Part shown: in pieces, positions 47,689 through 52,115 of the stretch
Position numbering within the stretch: the first letter of the stretch is position 1
Layout of the letters: each line of letters opens with the position of its first letter
From: Gillisia lutea
Lineage (GTDB): Bacteria > Bacteroidota > Bacteroidia > Flavobacteriales > Flavobacteriaceae
NCBI RefSeq assembly: GCF_021568705.1
Contig: NZ_JAKGTH010000009.1
Coordinates: 248,001 to 312,000 of the forward strand
DNA length: 64,000 bases
Reading direction: 5' to 3'
Position numbers and translations under genes: made by a program
Notes under the pieces: generated by a model
The model's input: the letters and a program-made list of their open reading frames with translations, nothing else
The model's database searches: none
What the model was told of the DNA's origin: nothing

Positions 47689-47740
47689 AATGAATGGCAT
47701 TTTTTATTATGATGTAAAATTATAGTACTCATACAGTGAA

Positions 47741-47762
47741 TTTTATGATAACCATCATAAAA
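47741..47762. promoter_or_regulatory. FNR/CRP-type operator-like dyad upstream of sqr
   Basis: The arms TTTTATGAT (47741-47749) and ATCATAAAA (47754-47762) are perfect inverted repeats separated by AACC. The core TGAT-N4-ATCA is the half-site arrangement of the FNR/CRP family (TTGAT-N4-ATCAA). It is about 53 bases upstream of the sqr start codon, where an activator or repressor site is expected. Confidence 0.55.
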
Positions 47763-47774
47763 CCATCAATATTC

Positions 47775-47789
47775 ACCCTGCGCAGGTGA
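47775..47789. repeat. Short GC-rich dyad upstream of sqr
   Basis: CACC-C-TGCGCA-GGTG (47774-47788, with CACC and GGTG arms around a palindromic TGCGCA) stands out by base composition in AT-rich DNA, about 90 bases from the sqr start. It may be a second operator; chance is possible. Confidence 0.3.
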
Positions 47790-47864
47790 CATCGCGCTTG
47801 AAATACTACGTTTTTAAAAGAGGAATAGAAAGGGCCGCCAATTTAAGAGGATTTGAAAAGATCT

Positions 47865-47908
47865 ATTATAAGTATATATTGTATTTAGTACGCTGCTGTA
47901 CTTATAAT
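47865..47908. repeat. 10-base inverted repeat in the sqr-upxY spacer
   Basis: ATTATAAGTA (47865-47874) and TACTTATAAT (47899-47908) are perfect inverted repeats with a 24-base interval. The interval contains a competing smaller stem, AGTAC (47887-47891) / GTACT (47898-47902). Its purpose is unknown. Confidence 0.35.
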
Positions 47909-48479
47909 GAAAGCGACTTAACTTAAATATTAGATTTACAAGTACTTAGGGTGCACTTTCAATCATATTTTTTACTCTTAGTATGAATTAACATTTATTT
48001 CGTATTTAATGTTAATTAGATGATGGTTTTATAGAAGGGTTAAAGAGCTCTTTTTTTGATGATTTTTTAATTGAATTTACTTCAACTTGACGTTTTGTGC
48101 ATTTTAAAATGTTAATTTCAAGGATGTTGTTACTTATTCCATGTGAGGCAATGTCTGTTAAAAGTTAAAACCAAACCTTTCATCGATGAAAAATCTTAGT
48201 AAAATTTTAAGAGTTGTAAAAGCTATAAAATCTCTAAAACAGAGGATGGTTTAAATTGTTAAAAAAAAATCTACTAATACTGGGTAAAATAATTAAATTC
48301 TCATTTAAAATCCAAAAATTTTAAAGATAATCTAAAAAAATGAAGTTATATTATATTTTCACTTCTTGATATTTAGGTTTTTTAAAAAATTTTAACATTT
48401 CCACATTGTAGAAATTAACCGAAATTCCTAATTTAATCTTAATGAAAGTCATAGTTTTTTAGTAGGCTAATATTTTTTA

Positions 48480-48513
48480 TTGAATATTATCCCTATTTAA
48501 AATTTAAGCTTTG
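48480..48513 (+). promoter_or_regulatory. Possible upxY operon promoter
   Basis: TTG (48480-48482) and AAGCTTTG (48506-48513, one mismatch to TAnnTTTG) are separated by 23 bases. If used, the transcript would have a leader of roughly 280 bases holding the whole structured element before upxY. The match is imperfect. Confidence 0.3.
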
Positions 48514-48582
48514 TAAGAAACATTTAATGTGACTTACTTGGCGAAGCCATGACCAACAGCCTTCAAAACTCATAAAAATCCT

Positions 48583-48698
48583 ACTTGCACTACCCCCAAT
48601 TAGTGACGGTTACATTATTAGAACTTAACTATAATGACCCGGAGTTATCAATATTCTTCTAAAGATTGGGGAAGACAATAAAAGGTAGTATTCTTCCC
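48583..48698 (+). ncRNA. Candidate structured leader RNA element, copy 1 (upstream of upxY)
   Basis: The outer stem is CCCCAAT (48594-48600) / ATTGGGG (48665-48671). An inner stem is GGT (48608-48610) and CATTAT (48613-48618) paired with ATAATG (48631-48636) and ACC (48637-48639), leaving a 2-base bulge. The conserved single-stranded core CCGGAGTT (48639-48646) and TTCTTC (48654-48659) recur in copy 2 at 49409-49528. A further hairpin, GGGAAG (48669-48674) plus AATA with TATT plus CTTCCC (48693-48698), shares bases with the 3' arm of the outer stem, so the two cannot form together. This suggests a switch-like leader. Confidence 0.6.
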
Positions 48699-48752
48699 GG
48701 CATATTCAAGCCATAATCTTCAGAATTTAATACTCCGCTTCTGTGGGAAATA

Positions 48753-48775
48753 CTCTGGGATTTTTTATCCCAGAG
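48753..48775 (+). other. Perfect hairpin in the upxY leader
   Basis: CTCTGGGAT (48753-48761) and ATCCCAGAG (48767-48775) form a 9-base stem with a T5 loop, 27 bases before the upxY start codon. There is no T run after it, so it does not look like a normal terminator. It could be a pausing or protein-binding hairpin. Confidence 0.55.
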
Positions 48776-48802
48776 CAAGTTTTAAATTTAAATGTATAAG
48801 GT

Positions 48803-49276
48803 ATGTCATGGTATGTGTTATATACGAAGCCTCGAGCGGAAAAAAGGGTGGCAAAAAACCTGGAATCGGCGAAAATAGAGATTTATTGTCCTATTGTCAC
48901 TGAGGTTAGACAATGGAGCGACCGGAAAAAGAAGGTAGAAGTGCCCTTATTCACGTCGTATGTCTTTGTAAAATTAAAAGACAAGGAGCGACAAAAGGTT
49001 TTCGAATTTCCTGATGTTATAAGATATCTTTATTGGTTGGGTAAACCAGCCGTTGTTAGAGATCATGAAATTGAGACTATTAAGAATTGGCTTGATACAG
49101 ATAATTATGATGATTTTGTTATAAAAAATCTGTCACCGGGAGATAGGGTTAAAATTACCTCAGGTGCTCTTAAAGACCAAGATGGTATCATAAGGCATAT
49201 AGGTACGAAGAGATTATCACTGGTGCTAACTGAAGCTGGTTGCACGGTTAGTGTAAAACTTAAAGAAGTGGTTTAA
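48803..49276 (+). CDS. UpxY-type transcription antiterminator (NusG paralogue)
   Basis: A 157-residue NusG-like protein. The NGN domain covers about residues 1-95 (MSWYVLYTKPRAEKRVAKNL, IYCPIVTEVRQWSDRKKKVE, FTSYVFVKL, VIRYLYWLG). A KOW domain follows (LSPGDRVKITSGALKDQDGI, residues ~112-131). In Bacteroides, UpxY proteins are the first genes of capsule operons and prevent early termination in the leader of their own locus. The start MSWYVLYTKP is typical. It is flanked on both sides by the structured elements at 48583 and 49409, which may be its targets (inference). Confidence 0.92.
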   Translation: MSWYVLYTKPRAEKRVAKNLESAKIEIYCPIVTEVRQWSDRKKKVEVPLFTSYVFVKLKDKERQKVFEFPDVIRYLYWLGKPAVVRDHEIETIKNWLDTDNYDDFVIKNLSPGDRVKITSGALKDQDGIIRHIGTKRLSLVLTEAGCTVSVKLKEVV

Positions 49277-49408
49277 AGTAGGCCTTACCGTTACCTTTCA
49301 TAATATTTTAAAACATTACAATCTTATTGTAAGTATACTATACCCCTAATACACTCCAAAAATGATTTTATGTGCCCCTAAAAGCACCCTGTAAAATCAA
49401 ATTAAAGT

Positions 49409-49528
49409 AGTTGCCGACCCCTAATAAGCAACGGATTCATTAAAGATATTTTAAATGACCGGAGTTTTAAAAATTCTTCAAATTAGGGATGGGCAGGTTC
49501 TAGCCAATATTACTGGCATTTCGAACCT
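49409..49528 (+). ncRNA. Candidate structured leader RNA element, copy 2 (upstream of gmd)
   Basis: The outer stem is CCCTAAT (49419-49425) / ATTAGGG (49482-49488). Compared with copy 1 (CCCCAAT/ATTGGGG) both arms have changed together, so pairing is kept. The inner stem is GG (49433-49434) plus TCATT (49437-49441) with AATGA (49454-49458) plus CC (49459-49460), again with a 2-base bulge. The core CCGGAGTT (49459-49466) and TTCTTC (49474-49479) match copy 1. A downstream hairpin AGGTTC (49495-49500) / GAACCT (49523-49528) has an inner GCCA/TGGC pair. The class of RNA is not recognised. Confidence 0.6.
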
Positions 49529-49617
49529 CAAAAATTTCTAAAATCTTATTGATACTTGATCTTTCGAAAAGGATATTCTATTATATATCTCTTTCCCGGA
49601 ACGGTTTAAGAATATTC

Positions 49618-49631
49618 GAAATTTAAATTTC
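49618..49631. repeat. 14-base perfect palindrome upstream of gmd
   Basis: GAAATTTAAATTTC reads the same on both strands. It is AT-rich, about 85 bases before the gmd start, and could be a regulator site or chance. Confidence 0.3.
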
Positions 49632-49716
49632 TGAATTTTTCCACTGTGAGCTCCATAGAAAATAATACGTGTTCTATCAATATAATATGCAGGATGAATT
49701 ATAGTAATAATTAATA

Positions 49717-50838
49717 ATGGCAAATATGAAAGTAGCGCTAATAACAGGAGTAACAGGTCAAGATGGGGCTTATCTAAGCGAATTCTTATTAAGAAAGGGG
49801 TATTTAGTTCACGGTTTAAAAAGAAGGACTTCCCAATTCAATACAGATCGTATAGACCATCTTTACCAGGATCCTCATATAGAAAATAGAAATTTCATTC
49901 TCCATTATAGTGATATGACAGATGCCGCTTCTGTGATTGGTCTAATAAAGCAAATACAACCAGATGAGATATACAACTTGGCGGCAATGAGTCATGTGCA
50001 GGTTTCTTTTGAAATTCCGGAATATACAGCCAATACCGATGGGTTAGGCACATTGCGAATTCTGGATGCTGTAAGATTATTAGGGTTGGAGCATAAAACC
50101 AAAATATATCAGGCATCTACCTCCGAGTTGTATGGGAAGGTACGAGAAGTTCCGCAATCGGAGACTACTCCGTTCTACCCTCGAAGTCCCTATGCTGTAG
50201 CCAAATTATATGCTTACTGGATGACAGTTAATTACCGGGAAGCTTATAATATGTTTGCTTGTAACGGTATTTTATTTAATCATGAGTCTCCCGTTAGAGG
50301 AGAAACCTTTGTGACGCGAAAAATAACAAGAGCAACAGCTCGAATTGTATTGGGTTTACAGGATAAGTTTTACTTAGGAAATCTGGATGCCATGCGGGAT
50401 TGGGGACATGCCAAAGATTATGTACGTATGATGTGGATGATCCTCCAGGCTGAAGAACCGGAGGATTGGGTAATTGCAACAGGAAAAACCACCAGTGTAC
50501 GGGACTTTGTAAGAATGGCATTTGCTCAAGTTGGAATAGAATTAGAATTTCAAGGAAATGGAGTAAATGAAAAAGCTGTGGTAATAGAGTGCACACATCC
50601 AGATTATCAATTAGAAGAAGGGAAAGAAGTTCTGGCGGTAGATCCACGTTATTTTAGGCCTACAGAAGTTGATGTTTTGGTGGGAGATCCCACAAAAGCA
50701 AACACTAAATTAGGATGGATTCCTGAATATGATCTTACTACATTGATTAAGGAAATGATGGAAAGCGACCTGGAAATTATGAGAAAGGACCGGTATCTCA
50801 ATGAGGTTGGTTTTAAAGTGCTTAATTATTTTGAATAG
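49717..50838 (+). CDS. gmd: GDP-mannose 4,6-dehydratase
   Basis: A 373-residue short-chain dehydrogenase (SDR) that turns GDP-mannose into GDP-4-keto-6-deoxymannose, the first step to GDP-L-fucose. The NADP site is [17 protein letters not shown] (residues 9-25). The active-site set contains the Thr/Ser in [10 protein letters not shown] and Tyr-x3-Lys in [29 protein letters not shown] is a typical Gmd block. Together with fcl (52176) it completes the pathway. The first enzyme gene after upxY, it is separated from it by a long structured leader. Confidence 0.95.
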
Positions 50839-50876: not shown

Positions 50877-52115
50877 ATGGAAGCGTACAAAGAATATGAT
50901 TATCTGCTTATTGGCGCAGGAATTATGGGATTAACGATATGTTTTGAGCTTCAGAAAAAATATCCGGATAAAAGAATTGCTATAATTGAAAAGGAAAACG
51001 ATGTAGCCAAGCATGCCAGTGGTAGAAATAGTGGCGTTTTACATGCAGGCTTTTATTATACTTCTAATTCCTTAAAAGCTAAGTTCACCAAAGATGGTAA
51101 TATGCTTATGAAAGAATTTTGTGATTCTAACGGAATATATGTGAATCATTGTAAAAAAGTTGTTGTTGCTAGTAATGAAGAGGAGTTAAGGGTGTTGTAT
51201 GAGCTGTATGATAGAGGTAAGCAAAATGGTGTGGATATTAGTTTAATTGATGAGGAAGAATTATACCAAATCGAACCTAACTCAAAGACCTATAAAAGAG
51301 CACTTTTTTCACCAACTACAGCCAGTGTGAATCCGGTAGAAGTATGTAAAAAACTTAAAGAGATCTTGATTGAAAAGAAGGTTGATTTTTTTTTCAATAC
51401 TAAATACTTAAAAAGGAAGGAAGATATTATAGTAACGAATAAAGTTAATTTTAAGCCTAAACTTTTAATTAATGCTGCTGGACTTTATGCTGATGTTATA
51501 GCTAAAGATTATGGGTTTTCCAGAGACCGTATTATCATTCCATTTAAAGGTATTTATTTAAAGTATACCGGTTCAGATCAACTAATAAAAACAAATATTT
51601 ATCCGGTGCCTAATTTATTAAATCCATTCTTAGGAGTTCATTATACTGTTACTGCCGATAATCATATAAAAATTGGACCTACCTCTATGCCCGCATTTTG
51701 GAGAGAGAATTATGGAGGATTGAGAAACTTTAAACTAGCAGAATTTTTACAAATAAGTTATTTTGAAATATTGCTATTTATTACTAATTCCTTCAATTTT
51801 AGAAAATTGGCAATTAGCGAGATAAGGAAGTACAATAAAGCTCATTTCGCAGGTTTGGCTAAAAAACTTACAAATAACCTAGAGATCAGGAAATTCAACC
51901 AATGGTTAAAGCCCGGGATAAGAGCCCAGTTATTAAATAAAAAAACACTGGAACTTGAAATGGATTTTATTATAGAAGGTGATAGCAAATCAATTCATCT
52001 ATTAAATGCTGTGTCTCCCGCATTTACATGTAGTTTTTCTATAGCAAAATATTTGATGAACACTGAAAATTTAAGAGAACCAGAACCTAAAAGTGAGACA
52101 ATTACATATTCATAA
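50877..52115 (+). CDS. LhgO-like FAD-dependent oxidoreductase (L-2-hydroxyglutarate oxidase family)
   Basis: A 412-residue DAO-fold flavoprotein. The FAD site is YLLIGAGIMGLTICFELQKK (about residues 9-28), with the flavin-linking region HASGRNSGVLHAGFYYTSNS typical of LhgO/L2HGDH. LLINAAGLYADVIAKDYGF and KIGPTSMPAFWRENYG are also family blocks. The usual substrate is L-2-hydroxyglutarate. Here it is wedged between gmd and fcl, so a role on a hydroxy-acid or sugar-acid substituent of the glycan is possible (inference). The C-terminal half has hydrophobic segments (LQISYFEILLFITNSF) and may touch the membrane. Confidence 0.8.
   Translation: MEAYKEYDYLLIGAGIMGLTICFELQKKYPDKRIAIIEKENDVAKHASGRNSGVLHAGFYYTSNSLKAKFTKDGNMLMKEFCDSNGIYVNHCKKVVVASNEEELRVLYELYDRGKQNGVDISLIDEEELYQIEPNSKTYKRALFSPTTASVNPVEVCKKLKEILIEKKVDFFFNTKYLKRKEDIIVTNKVNFKPKLLINAAGLYADVIAKDYGFSRDRIIIPFKGIYLKYTGSDQLIKTNIYPVPNLLNPFLGVHYTVTADNHIKIGPTSMPAFWRENYGGLRNFKLAEFLQISYFEILLFITNSFNFRKLAISEIRKYNKAHFAGLAKKLTNNLEIRKFNQWLKPGIRAQLLNKKTLELEMDFIIEGDSKSIHLLNAVSPAFTCSFSIAKYLMNTENLREPEPKSETITYS

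Follow-up and report, generated by a model that had tools for sequence, protein, structure and literature searches.

An ops-like hairpin motif beside upxY and a duplicated leader element at a polysaccharide locus of Gillisia lutea

In Bacteroidota, operons for capsules and other polysaccharides are switched on by UpxY proteins, and, according to the available portion of one study, UpxY prevents premature termination in the 5′ leaders upstream of upxY (PMC7819879). How NusG paralogs that are encoded within their own operons are recruited is called unknown in the accessible text of a 2020 article (PMC7593976). The upxY gene of Gillisia lutea raises this question at a single locus: which element near the gene might load the antiterminator onto RNA polymerase? 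We analysed a window of 64,000 nt, which is part of a 3.18-Mb genome of 14 contigs that was searched as well. A sequence-only reading of the window had singled out two similar elements on either side of upxY and had offered them as the binding or pausing site of UpxY, as riboswitch-like leaders, or as a known RNA such as Flavo-1. We evaluate these proposals below, together with a second candidate, a small ops-like hairpin that lies upstream of both elements.

Genes of the locus

To the left of upxY, a divergently placed oxidoreductase gene is followed by a long intergenic region. An intergenic region of 440 nt separates upxY from gmd, which is followed by an L-2-hydroxyglutarate-oxidase-like gene, a GDP-fucose-synthase-like gene, and more sugar and glycosyl genes (Table 1). 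The gene between the two elements had been taken for the antiterminator upxY, and this holds: its product scores 144.4 bits with the antiterm_UpxY model (NF033644, cut-off 100), which places it in the UpxY family, and it remains below the cut-offs of both the RfaH model (82.1 bits, cut-off 144.5) and the LoaP model (58.3 bits, cut-off 125). Among named loci (best 80 of 569 relatives), the nearest UpxY proteins come from Salinimicrobium, Christiangramia, and Salegentibacter. The best explanation of the window, to which as a whole we give an even chance, is that it holds the 5′ region of a polysaccharide locus under a UpxY antiterminator. The L-2-hydroxyglutarate-oxidase-like gene (50877-52115), flanked within the polysaccharide locus by gmd and the GDP-fucose-synthase-like gene, scores 312.3 bits with NF008726 (cut-off 299).

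Table 1. Coordinates of the features discussed, numbered from the first letter of the window
Feature	Position	Strand	Basis or remark
ops-like element	48528-48551	+	TGTGACT (48528-48534), 5-nt spacer, 12-mer GGCGAAGCCATG (48540-48551)
Structured element copy 1, in the leader, after the ops-like element and before upxY	48584-48671	+	Alignment, consensus fold
Copy 1 outer stem, 5′ arm CCCCAAT	48594-48600	+	Pairs with 48665-48671; alignment A2 columns 11-17, six pairs (11-16) counted
Copy 1 second helix, 4 bp	48601-48604/48644-48647	+	Not named in the sequence-only reading
Copy 1 ATTCTTC, 3′ internal bulge of the hairpin	48653-48659	+	Conserved in both copies; unpaired in RNAalifold consensus
Copy 1 outer stem, 3′ arm ATTGGGG	48665-48671	+	Alignment A2
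Strong hairpin CTCTGGGAT-TTTTT-ATCCCAGAG ahead of the upxY start	48753-48775	+	Paired in MFE and centroid; no U tract after it
upxY, NusG-paralog antiterminator, 157 aa	48803-49276	+	PF02357 6.2e-21; NF033644
Structured element copy 2, between upxY and gmd	49410-49488	+	Alignment, consensus fold
Copy 2 outer stem, 5′ arm CCCTAAT	49419-49425	+	Pairs with 49482-49488; alignment, columns 11-16 counted
Copy 2 second helix, 4 bp	49426-49429/49464-49467	+	Not named in the sequence-only reading
Copy 2 ATTCTTC	49473-49479	+	Conserved with copy 1
Copy 2 outer stem, 3′ arm ATTAGGG	49482-49488	+	Alignment
gmd, GDP-mannose 4,6-dehydratase, first biosynthetic gene of the polysaccharide locus	49717-50838	+	TIGR01472 584.7 bits, cut-off 415

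Two related elements on either side of upxY

The two copies are confirmed as real, related elements, one on each side of upxY as had been described. Their local alignment scores 59, a value that none of 1000 shuffles reached (mean 17.5, maximum 32). Because the flanks of the copies are not similar (left flanks matched by 698/1000 shuffles and right flanks by 157/1000), the repeated unit is the element of ~88 nt, and duplication of the whole leader was ruled out. Comparison of the whole intergenic regions gave a weaker signal (score 79, reached by 3/1000 shuffles); under the same scoring, the best matches elsewhere in the window scored 42 for the copy 1 probe and 40 for the copy 2 probe. When the copies were compared under strict scoring to the remainder of the window, copy 1 reached 17 (probably a self-overlap) and copy 2 reached 13, which ties with the value for the two copies against each other (13); we give neither figure any weight. 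As an exact string, CCGGAGTT-N6-ATTCTTC is found at the two copies only in the 3.18-Mb genome.

Both copies are probably structured on the transcribed strand. RNAalifold predicts a common extended hairpin that begins with the outer stem and the 4-bp helix. Beyond an internal loop, where GA faces GA in copy 1 and AA faces GA in copy 2, the hairpin continues with a CGG/CCG stem and the inner stem, and its one-sided bulge holds the conserved ATTCTTC. The consensus fold has a z of −3.3 on a structure-blind trimmed alignment (7/1000 column shuffles as low), compared to −1.6 on the reverse-complement strand and −1.5 in a wider blind alignment; the z of −5.6 from a hand-adjusted alignment is biased upwards by the adjustment. 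When the copies are folded singly, copy 1 has a z of −0.6 and copy 2 a z of −2.5; for copy 2, the fold of the minus strand is at least as good (z = −3.2).

Paired changes had been put forward as a sign of selection for RNA structure, with both arms of the outer stem changing together. One double change (C-G to U-A) is indeed present in the outer stem, but the rest of its pairs do not differ between the copies; the inner stem forms in both copies, in slightly different registers. The second helix contributes another double change (U-A to A-U) and a single U-G to C-G change. With two sequences, these 2 double changes in 13 counted pairs, plus the U-G to C-G change, are reached by 119/500 shuffles and are not significant; outside the 13 pairs, one more swap is seen in a pair close to the loop, whose neighbouring pair is broken in copy 2. 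Selection on structure is therefore plausible, but the evidence for it is thinner than stated. A pseudoknot in which the 5′ hairpin loop pairs with the 3′ arm was dropped, since its 5′ hairpin would have to occupy different alignment columns in the two copies. Two further pairings are possible. In the MFE structure, the 3′ arm of copy 1, GGGGAAGA, can pair instead with a downstream TCTTCCC (48665-48695), which is a possible alternative fold. In the second intergenic region, ACCCCTAATA occurs twice (49342-49351 and 49417-49426) with the related GCCCCTAAAA between the two sites, and all three could compete for the ATTAGGG arm of copy 2.

The copies could also be a duplicated DNA element that has no role as RNA, either a decayed mobile repeat or a DNA site bound by a protein. 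Such an element would agree with the good fold of the copy 2 minus strand (z −3.2) and with the presence of two copies only, in one genome. However, the arms differ in their letters and still pair, which sets them apart from terminal repeats that a single transposase binds. The signal of the consensus fold is also lower on the opposite strand, and the genome holds no further copy. We regard a pure DNA element as rather improbable.

Relatives of the copies were sought in several ways. Rfam gave no match in the window at gathering thresholds and none up to E 10 in 48400-49720; the copies match none of its families, including Flavo-1, JUMPstart, epsC, and wcaG, and the idea of a known RNA such as Flavo-1 is not supported. 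Within the genome, covariance models of the copies found the two copies themselves and no convincing third. Model R1 found no convincing copy in 397 Flavobacteriaceae genomes, in a search that, like all our covariance searches of more than 40 genomes, used stricter filters by which weak matches are lost. Its weak matches in 8 other genomes (E 0.0018 to 0.07 per genome) were judged to be due to chance, given their number and their missing outer stem or core letters. Among the 16 genomes of the genus, weak matches appeared in two others only (E 0.18 and 0.79). Model R2, applied to 34 genomes that are mostly UpxY-positive, produced two matches, neither of them convincing (E 0.0046 in G033, where CCGGAGTT is missing, and E 0.088 in G138). 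Covariance searches of fetched loci (95 with our own included, and the window plus 99) also yielded no convincing further copy, nhmmer recovered only our own copies from 110 upxY loci (best other E = 1.1), and the exact pattern was present in 60 genomes (our own and 59 others) at our own two sites only. None of 42 viral stretches that share the exact string scored above 18.1 bits with R2.

No convincing further copies of the envisaged RNA family were thus found in related genomes, where the closest UpxY within the genus is 62% identical to ours and the nearest relatives at hand are only ~60% identical. The sequence-only reading had named this very outcome as one that would refute it, and its general claim is weakened accordingly. 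With two copies and pair counts that are not significant, the elements do not qualify as a conserved structured RNA family among relatives at this distance, and they look like a lineage-specific duplicated leader element. On their own, the two leader RNAs would be a local curiosity until relatives are found. Near the upxY locus of one relative we observed a Bacteroid-trp leader RNA (RF01692, 61.1 bits; L013:501-617, minus strand).

These searches also bear on what the copies might do. Leader RNAs that bind a ligand or a protein, in the manner of riboswitches or feedback elements, and that control upxY and gmd separately would explain why each copy lies in a long intergenic region before a gene, and they would be consistent with the conserved letters of the internal loop and bulge (GA/GA in copy 1, ATTCTTC) and with the alternative pairing of GGGGAAGA with TCTTCCC in the MFE structure of copy 1. 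Riboswitch classes, however, are generally found in more than one species, and here there are two sequences from one genome and no Rfam match; this explanation appears unlikely to us.

The proposal that the copies are the binding site of UpxY is weakened as well, because such sites should recur beside other upxY genes and did not. Under a LoaP-dfn-like version of the proposal, UpxY would bind both copies as RNA, with one loading site per transcript segment. The copies do flank upxY and are absent elsewhere in the genome, and LoaP, another NusG paralog, needs and binds a UNCG hairpin of RNA in the dfn leader of Bacillus (available text of PMC12691694). Yet the copies are not UNCG-loop hairpins, and it is another element that many other upxY loci share. 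Taken together, we consider binding of UpxY to the copies quite unlikely.

An ops-like motif beside upxY genes

That other element, a conserved ops-like hairpin, is a stronger result than the two copies. It is located 32 nt before copy 1 and reads TGTGACT-TACTT-GGCGAAGCC-ATG. Its 12-mer has a 3-bp stem with a GAA loop, which extends to 4 bp with the pair T48539-A48549, and its GC-GAA-GC core (48541-48547), a GNA loop on two G-C pairs, belongs to the class of GNA DNA mini-hairpins. In E. coli, the 12-mer ops, GGCGGTAGCGTG, recruits RfaH and carries a pause-inducing TG at positions 11-12, and its non-template strand folds into a small hairpin with the loop G4-A7 (accessible portion of PMC5995543). 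The window has GGCGAAGCCATG and not the exact ops 12-mer, and TG is present at positions 11-12. Judged from its letters, the motif can form an ops-type hairpin of non-template DNA with a covarying outer pair. Nearest-neighbour models give −3.0 kcal/mol for the hairpin as RNA and −1.7 kcal/mol as DNA and, because it is lower in energy as RNA, do not favour read-out as DNA. Moreover, the ops study argues that the E. coli bubble would not allow a stem longer by a second pair (same portion of PMC5995543), and a 3-bp DNA hairpin may therefore need a larger bubble.

With up to 1 mismatch, GGCGAAGCC occurs a single time in the window, and the genome contains one motif site; a scan of the window found no second ops-like element ahead of copy 2. 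The flavobacterial promoter consensus is TANNTTTG, to which no exact match exists ahead of the element in 47701-48600.

To describe the motif, TGKGAYT-N5-6-(N)GC-GNA-GC(N)-RTG, among relatives, we looked for sites within 900 nt of upxY in 107 distinct loci that were fetched by upxY alone (one source being the best 80 of 569 relatives). The motif is located beside upxY in 75 of the 107 loci, with one site each (reversed control, 0; opposite strand, 1); many of the 107 loci are from Flavobacterium, and the sites are not independent. It lies downstream of upxY in 66 loci and upstream in 9, and it is upstream in this genome. The middle base of the loop, which the search left free, gives GAA at 55 sites, GGA at 15, GTA at 5, and never GCA. 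Position 11 is T in 75/75 sites, although T was not selected on, position 12 is G in 65/75, and position 10 is a purine in 70/75. The outer pair, formed by the first and ninth base, is standard in 71/75 sites and shows 6 Watson-Crick double changes (A-T, C-G, and T-A, two each); 0/20000 shuffles, which ignore relatedness, reach either count, pointing to covariation. Of the distinct sites of a strict pattern that have upxY in the same locus, 55/55 lie on the upxY strand. In the remaining 32/107 loci, no site occurs within 900 nt of upxY. These include the seven listed loci from Salegentibacter (L016-L022), which may use another signal.

The association with upxY extends to whole genomes. The strict motif occurs in 25/299 Flavobacteriaceae genomes (28 sites; reversed control, 3/299), and 24 of these 25 are among the 68 UpxY-positive genomes (Fisher P = 2e−16, kinship ignored). 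For nineteen of the 28 sites, the best UpxY match is no more than 1 kb away; the nine that remain may reflect other UpxY genes, action in trans, or chance. Within the genus, GGCGAAGCCNTGA is found in 7/16 genomes (control, 1/16), and upxY was found in 5 of the 7 loci. Across the phylum, the strict motif occurs in 34/395 genomes versus 6 for the control, by a hand count of printed rows, and of 18 new loci, 11 (three from outside the family) contain UpxY in the 3 kb that were fetched. For a motif-blind sample, a UpxY protein of another family served as the query against 247 genomes of the class. In the resulting 30 loci, 16 carry the motif at at least 14 of 16 points and 14 do not (reversed, 0/30; opposite strand, 1/30); since the locus of the query protein itself bears the motif, relatives of this kind may be favoured. 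Outside Flavobacteriaceae, 13/26 UpxY-like loci have the motif, across seven families.

Some loci show unusual arrangements. In a locus from outside the family (L177:1501-1530), the motif runs into the start of the UpxY open frame and may sit at or inside the coding start. In locus L120, a single upxY is preceded by two ops-like hairpins (326 and 489; GGCGAAGCCATG), which are ~160 nt from each other. In three loci, an additional partial 5′ block stands ~14 nt ahead of the first (GTGGGACTCTAAATGGGACTC in L030 and L031, GTGAGACTCAAAATGGGACTC in L101).

Alternatively, the motif could be some other leader feature, such as a promoter part or a signal for ribosome entry or processing, of polysaccharide operons that usually come with upxY. 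The 9/28 sites beyond 1 kb of the best UpxY match and the 1/25 motif genomes that lack a UpxY match fit this possibility, and the binding of UpxY to the motif is putative. On the other hand, 24/25 motif genomes are UpxY-positive, the motif is confined to one strand, and it shares its length, the TG at positions 11-12, and a small hairpin with E. coli ops. We thus view a different leader feature as improbable and suggest that the ops-like element is likely the loading site of UpxY. By its sequence and distribution it is the better candidate for this function than the copies, because it recurs beside upxY genes and they do not.

On the protein side, UpxY aligns to RfaH across the NGN domain and keeps the equivalent of RfaH K10, and the RfaH contact residues H20, R23, Q24, and R73 are without equivalents. 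No residue of UpxY stood out as co-varying with the loop base of the ops-like site. Residues 38-44 of UpxY, WSDRKKK, are near-invariant (D40, R41, and K43 in 120/120 distinct UpxY proteins, 13 of them motif-fetched, and W38 in 118), and their conservation is equal in UpxY with and without an ops-like site.

A putative order of events and its parallels

The sequence itself shows the two copies with their common fold and the ops-like element with its conservation, its bias to one strand, and its link to upxY. On this basis we propose the following order of events, in which pausing, loading of UpxY, and the barrier role of the copies are what we infer. RNA polymerase would transcribe the long leader and meet the ops-like element ~250 nt before upxY, where the non-template strand or the nascent RNA would form the small GNA-loop hairpin and the TG at positions 11-12 would pause the polymerase. 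UpxY would board there and ride on with the polymerase, which would then pass copy 1, upxY, copy 2, and the biosynthetic genes. In the untranslated, C-rich leader, the copies may act as pause or attenuation barriers through which a polymerase that bears UpxY would read.

Loading at the ops-like element with the copies as downstream barriers is the best explanation as a whole, and we hold its chances to be evenly balanced. Several points count against the loading model: 32/107 loci are without a site, the element is mostly downstream of upxY in relatives, most RfaH contact residues are lost in UpxY, and no ops-like element precedes copy 2. The barrier part is a tentative suggestion about which we are somewhat doubtful. 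A barrier or pause role fits because copy 1 is the first element after the loading site and copy 2 comes before the biosynthetic genes, but other roles fit too, and the lack of relatives, the lack of an intrinsic terminator nearby, and the pair counts weigh against it. A terminator scan found no intrinsic terminator in the leader or near the copies. The leader has a C/G ratio of 1.32, and the second intergenic region starts with a part at 1.58, while the values are 0.55 in upxY and 0.67 in gmd; a C-rich leader would suit Rho.

Given that the motif lies beside upxY, that its stem covaries, and that the pause dinucleotide of ops is kept, the recruitment question becomes testable on 24 bp of DNA. 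If our proposal is true, hairpin-guided loading of an antiterminator, which has been detailed for RfaH, would extend to another phylum. Among the matches listed from the literature searched (on UpxY, on NusG paralogs or ops in Bacteroidota, and on JUMPstart), which lay mostly outside subscription journals and hence the original UpxY papers, no description of such a motif was seen, and a search for GGCGAAGCC with capsule gave no title on the topic among the matches listed.

Several known systems resemble parts of this arrangement. The EAR/epsC and JUMPstart RNAs are structured leaders of polysaccharide operons tied to transcription elongation (available text of PMC2864571); they come from other phyla, and the window has no Rfam match to either. 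As far as the accessible part of PMC12691694 describes it, the LoaP-dfn system has in common with this locus a cis element in the leader, a structure and a downstream barrier, a NusG paralog, and a long biosynthetic operon. Unlike there, a UNCG hairpin is absent from both copies and from the ops-like motif, and the folds of the ops-like hairpin (GAA loop) and of the two copies contain no UNCG loop of the LoaP type.

The closest parallel in form is ops itself, as presented in the available portion of PMC5995543. Both elements are 12-mers in the leaders of polysaccharide and other long operons, with GG at positions 1-2, C3, G4, and TG at 11-12, both form a small hairpin whose loop starts with G and ends with A, and both have a NusG paralog as reader, putatively so for UpxY. 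They differ in the loop, which is GNA (3 nt) here and GGTA (4 nt) in ops, and in the conserved TGKGAYT block that stands 5-6 nt upstream here. Unlike ops with RfaH, the motif is paired with UpxY, which is without most of the base-contact residues of RfaH and whose recruitment by the motif is putative.

A further parallel comes from DNA chemistry. Oligonucleotides of the type d(GCGNAGC) form extraordinarily stable DNA mini-hairpins with GNA or GNNA loops (accessible text of PMC4686876), and the motif core GCG(A/G/T)AGC is exactly such a GNA loop on two G-C pairs. The mini-hairpins in that text are designed or chemical objects, whereas a role in transcription is our suggestion for the motif. By sequence, the GC-GGTA-GC of ops fits the GNNA form, a parallel that we draw ourselves. 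If our proposal on loading is true, it would suggest a general rule of GNA and GNNA mini-hairpins. We conjecture, with no lean either way, that ops with its GGTA loop is the GNNA version of the same principle, by descent or by convergence, and that, with its duplicated leader RNA, this genome has a second layer of cis elements ahead of upxY and of the biosynthetic genes.
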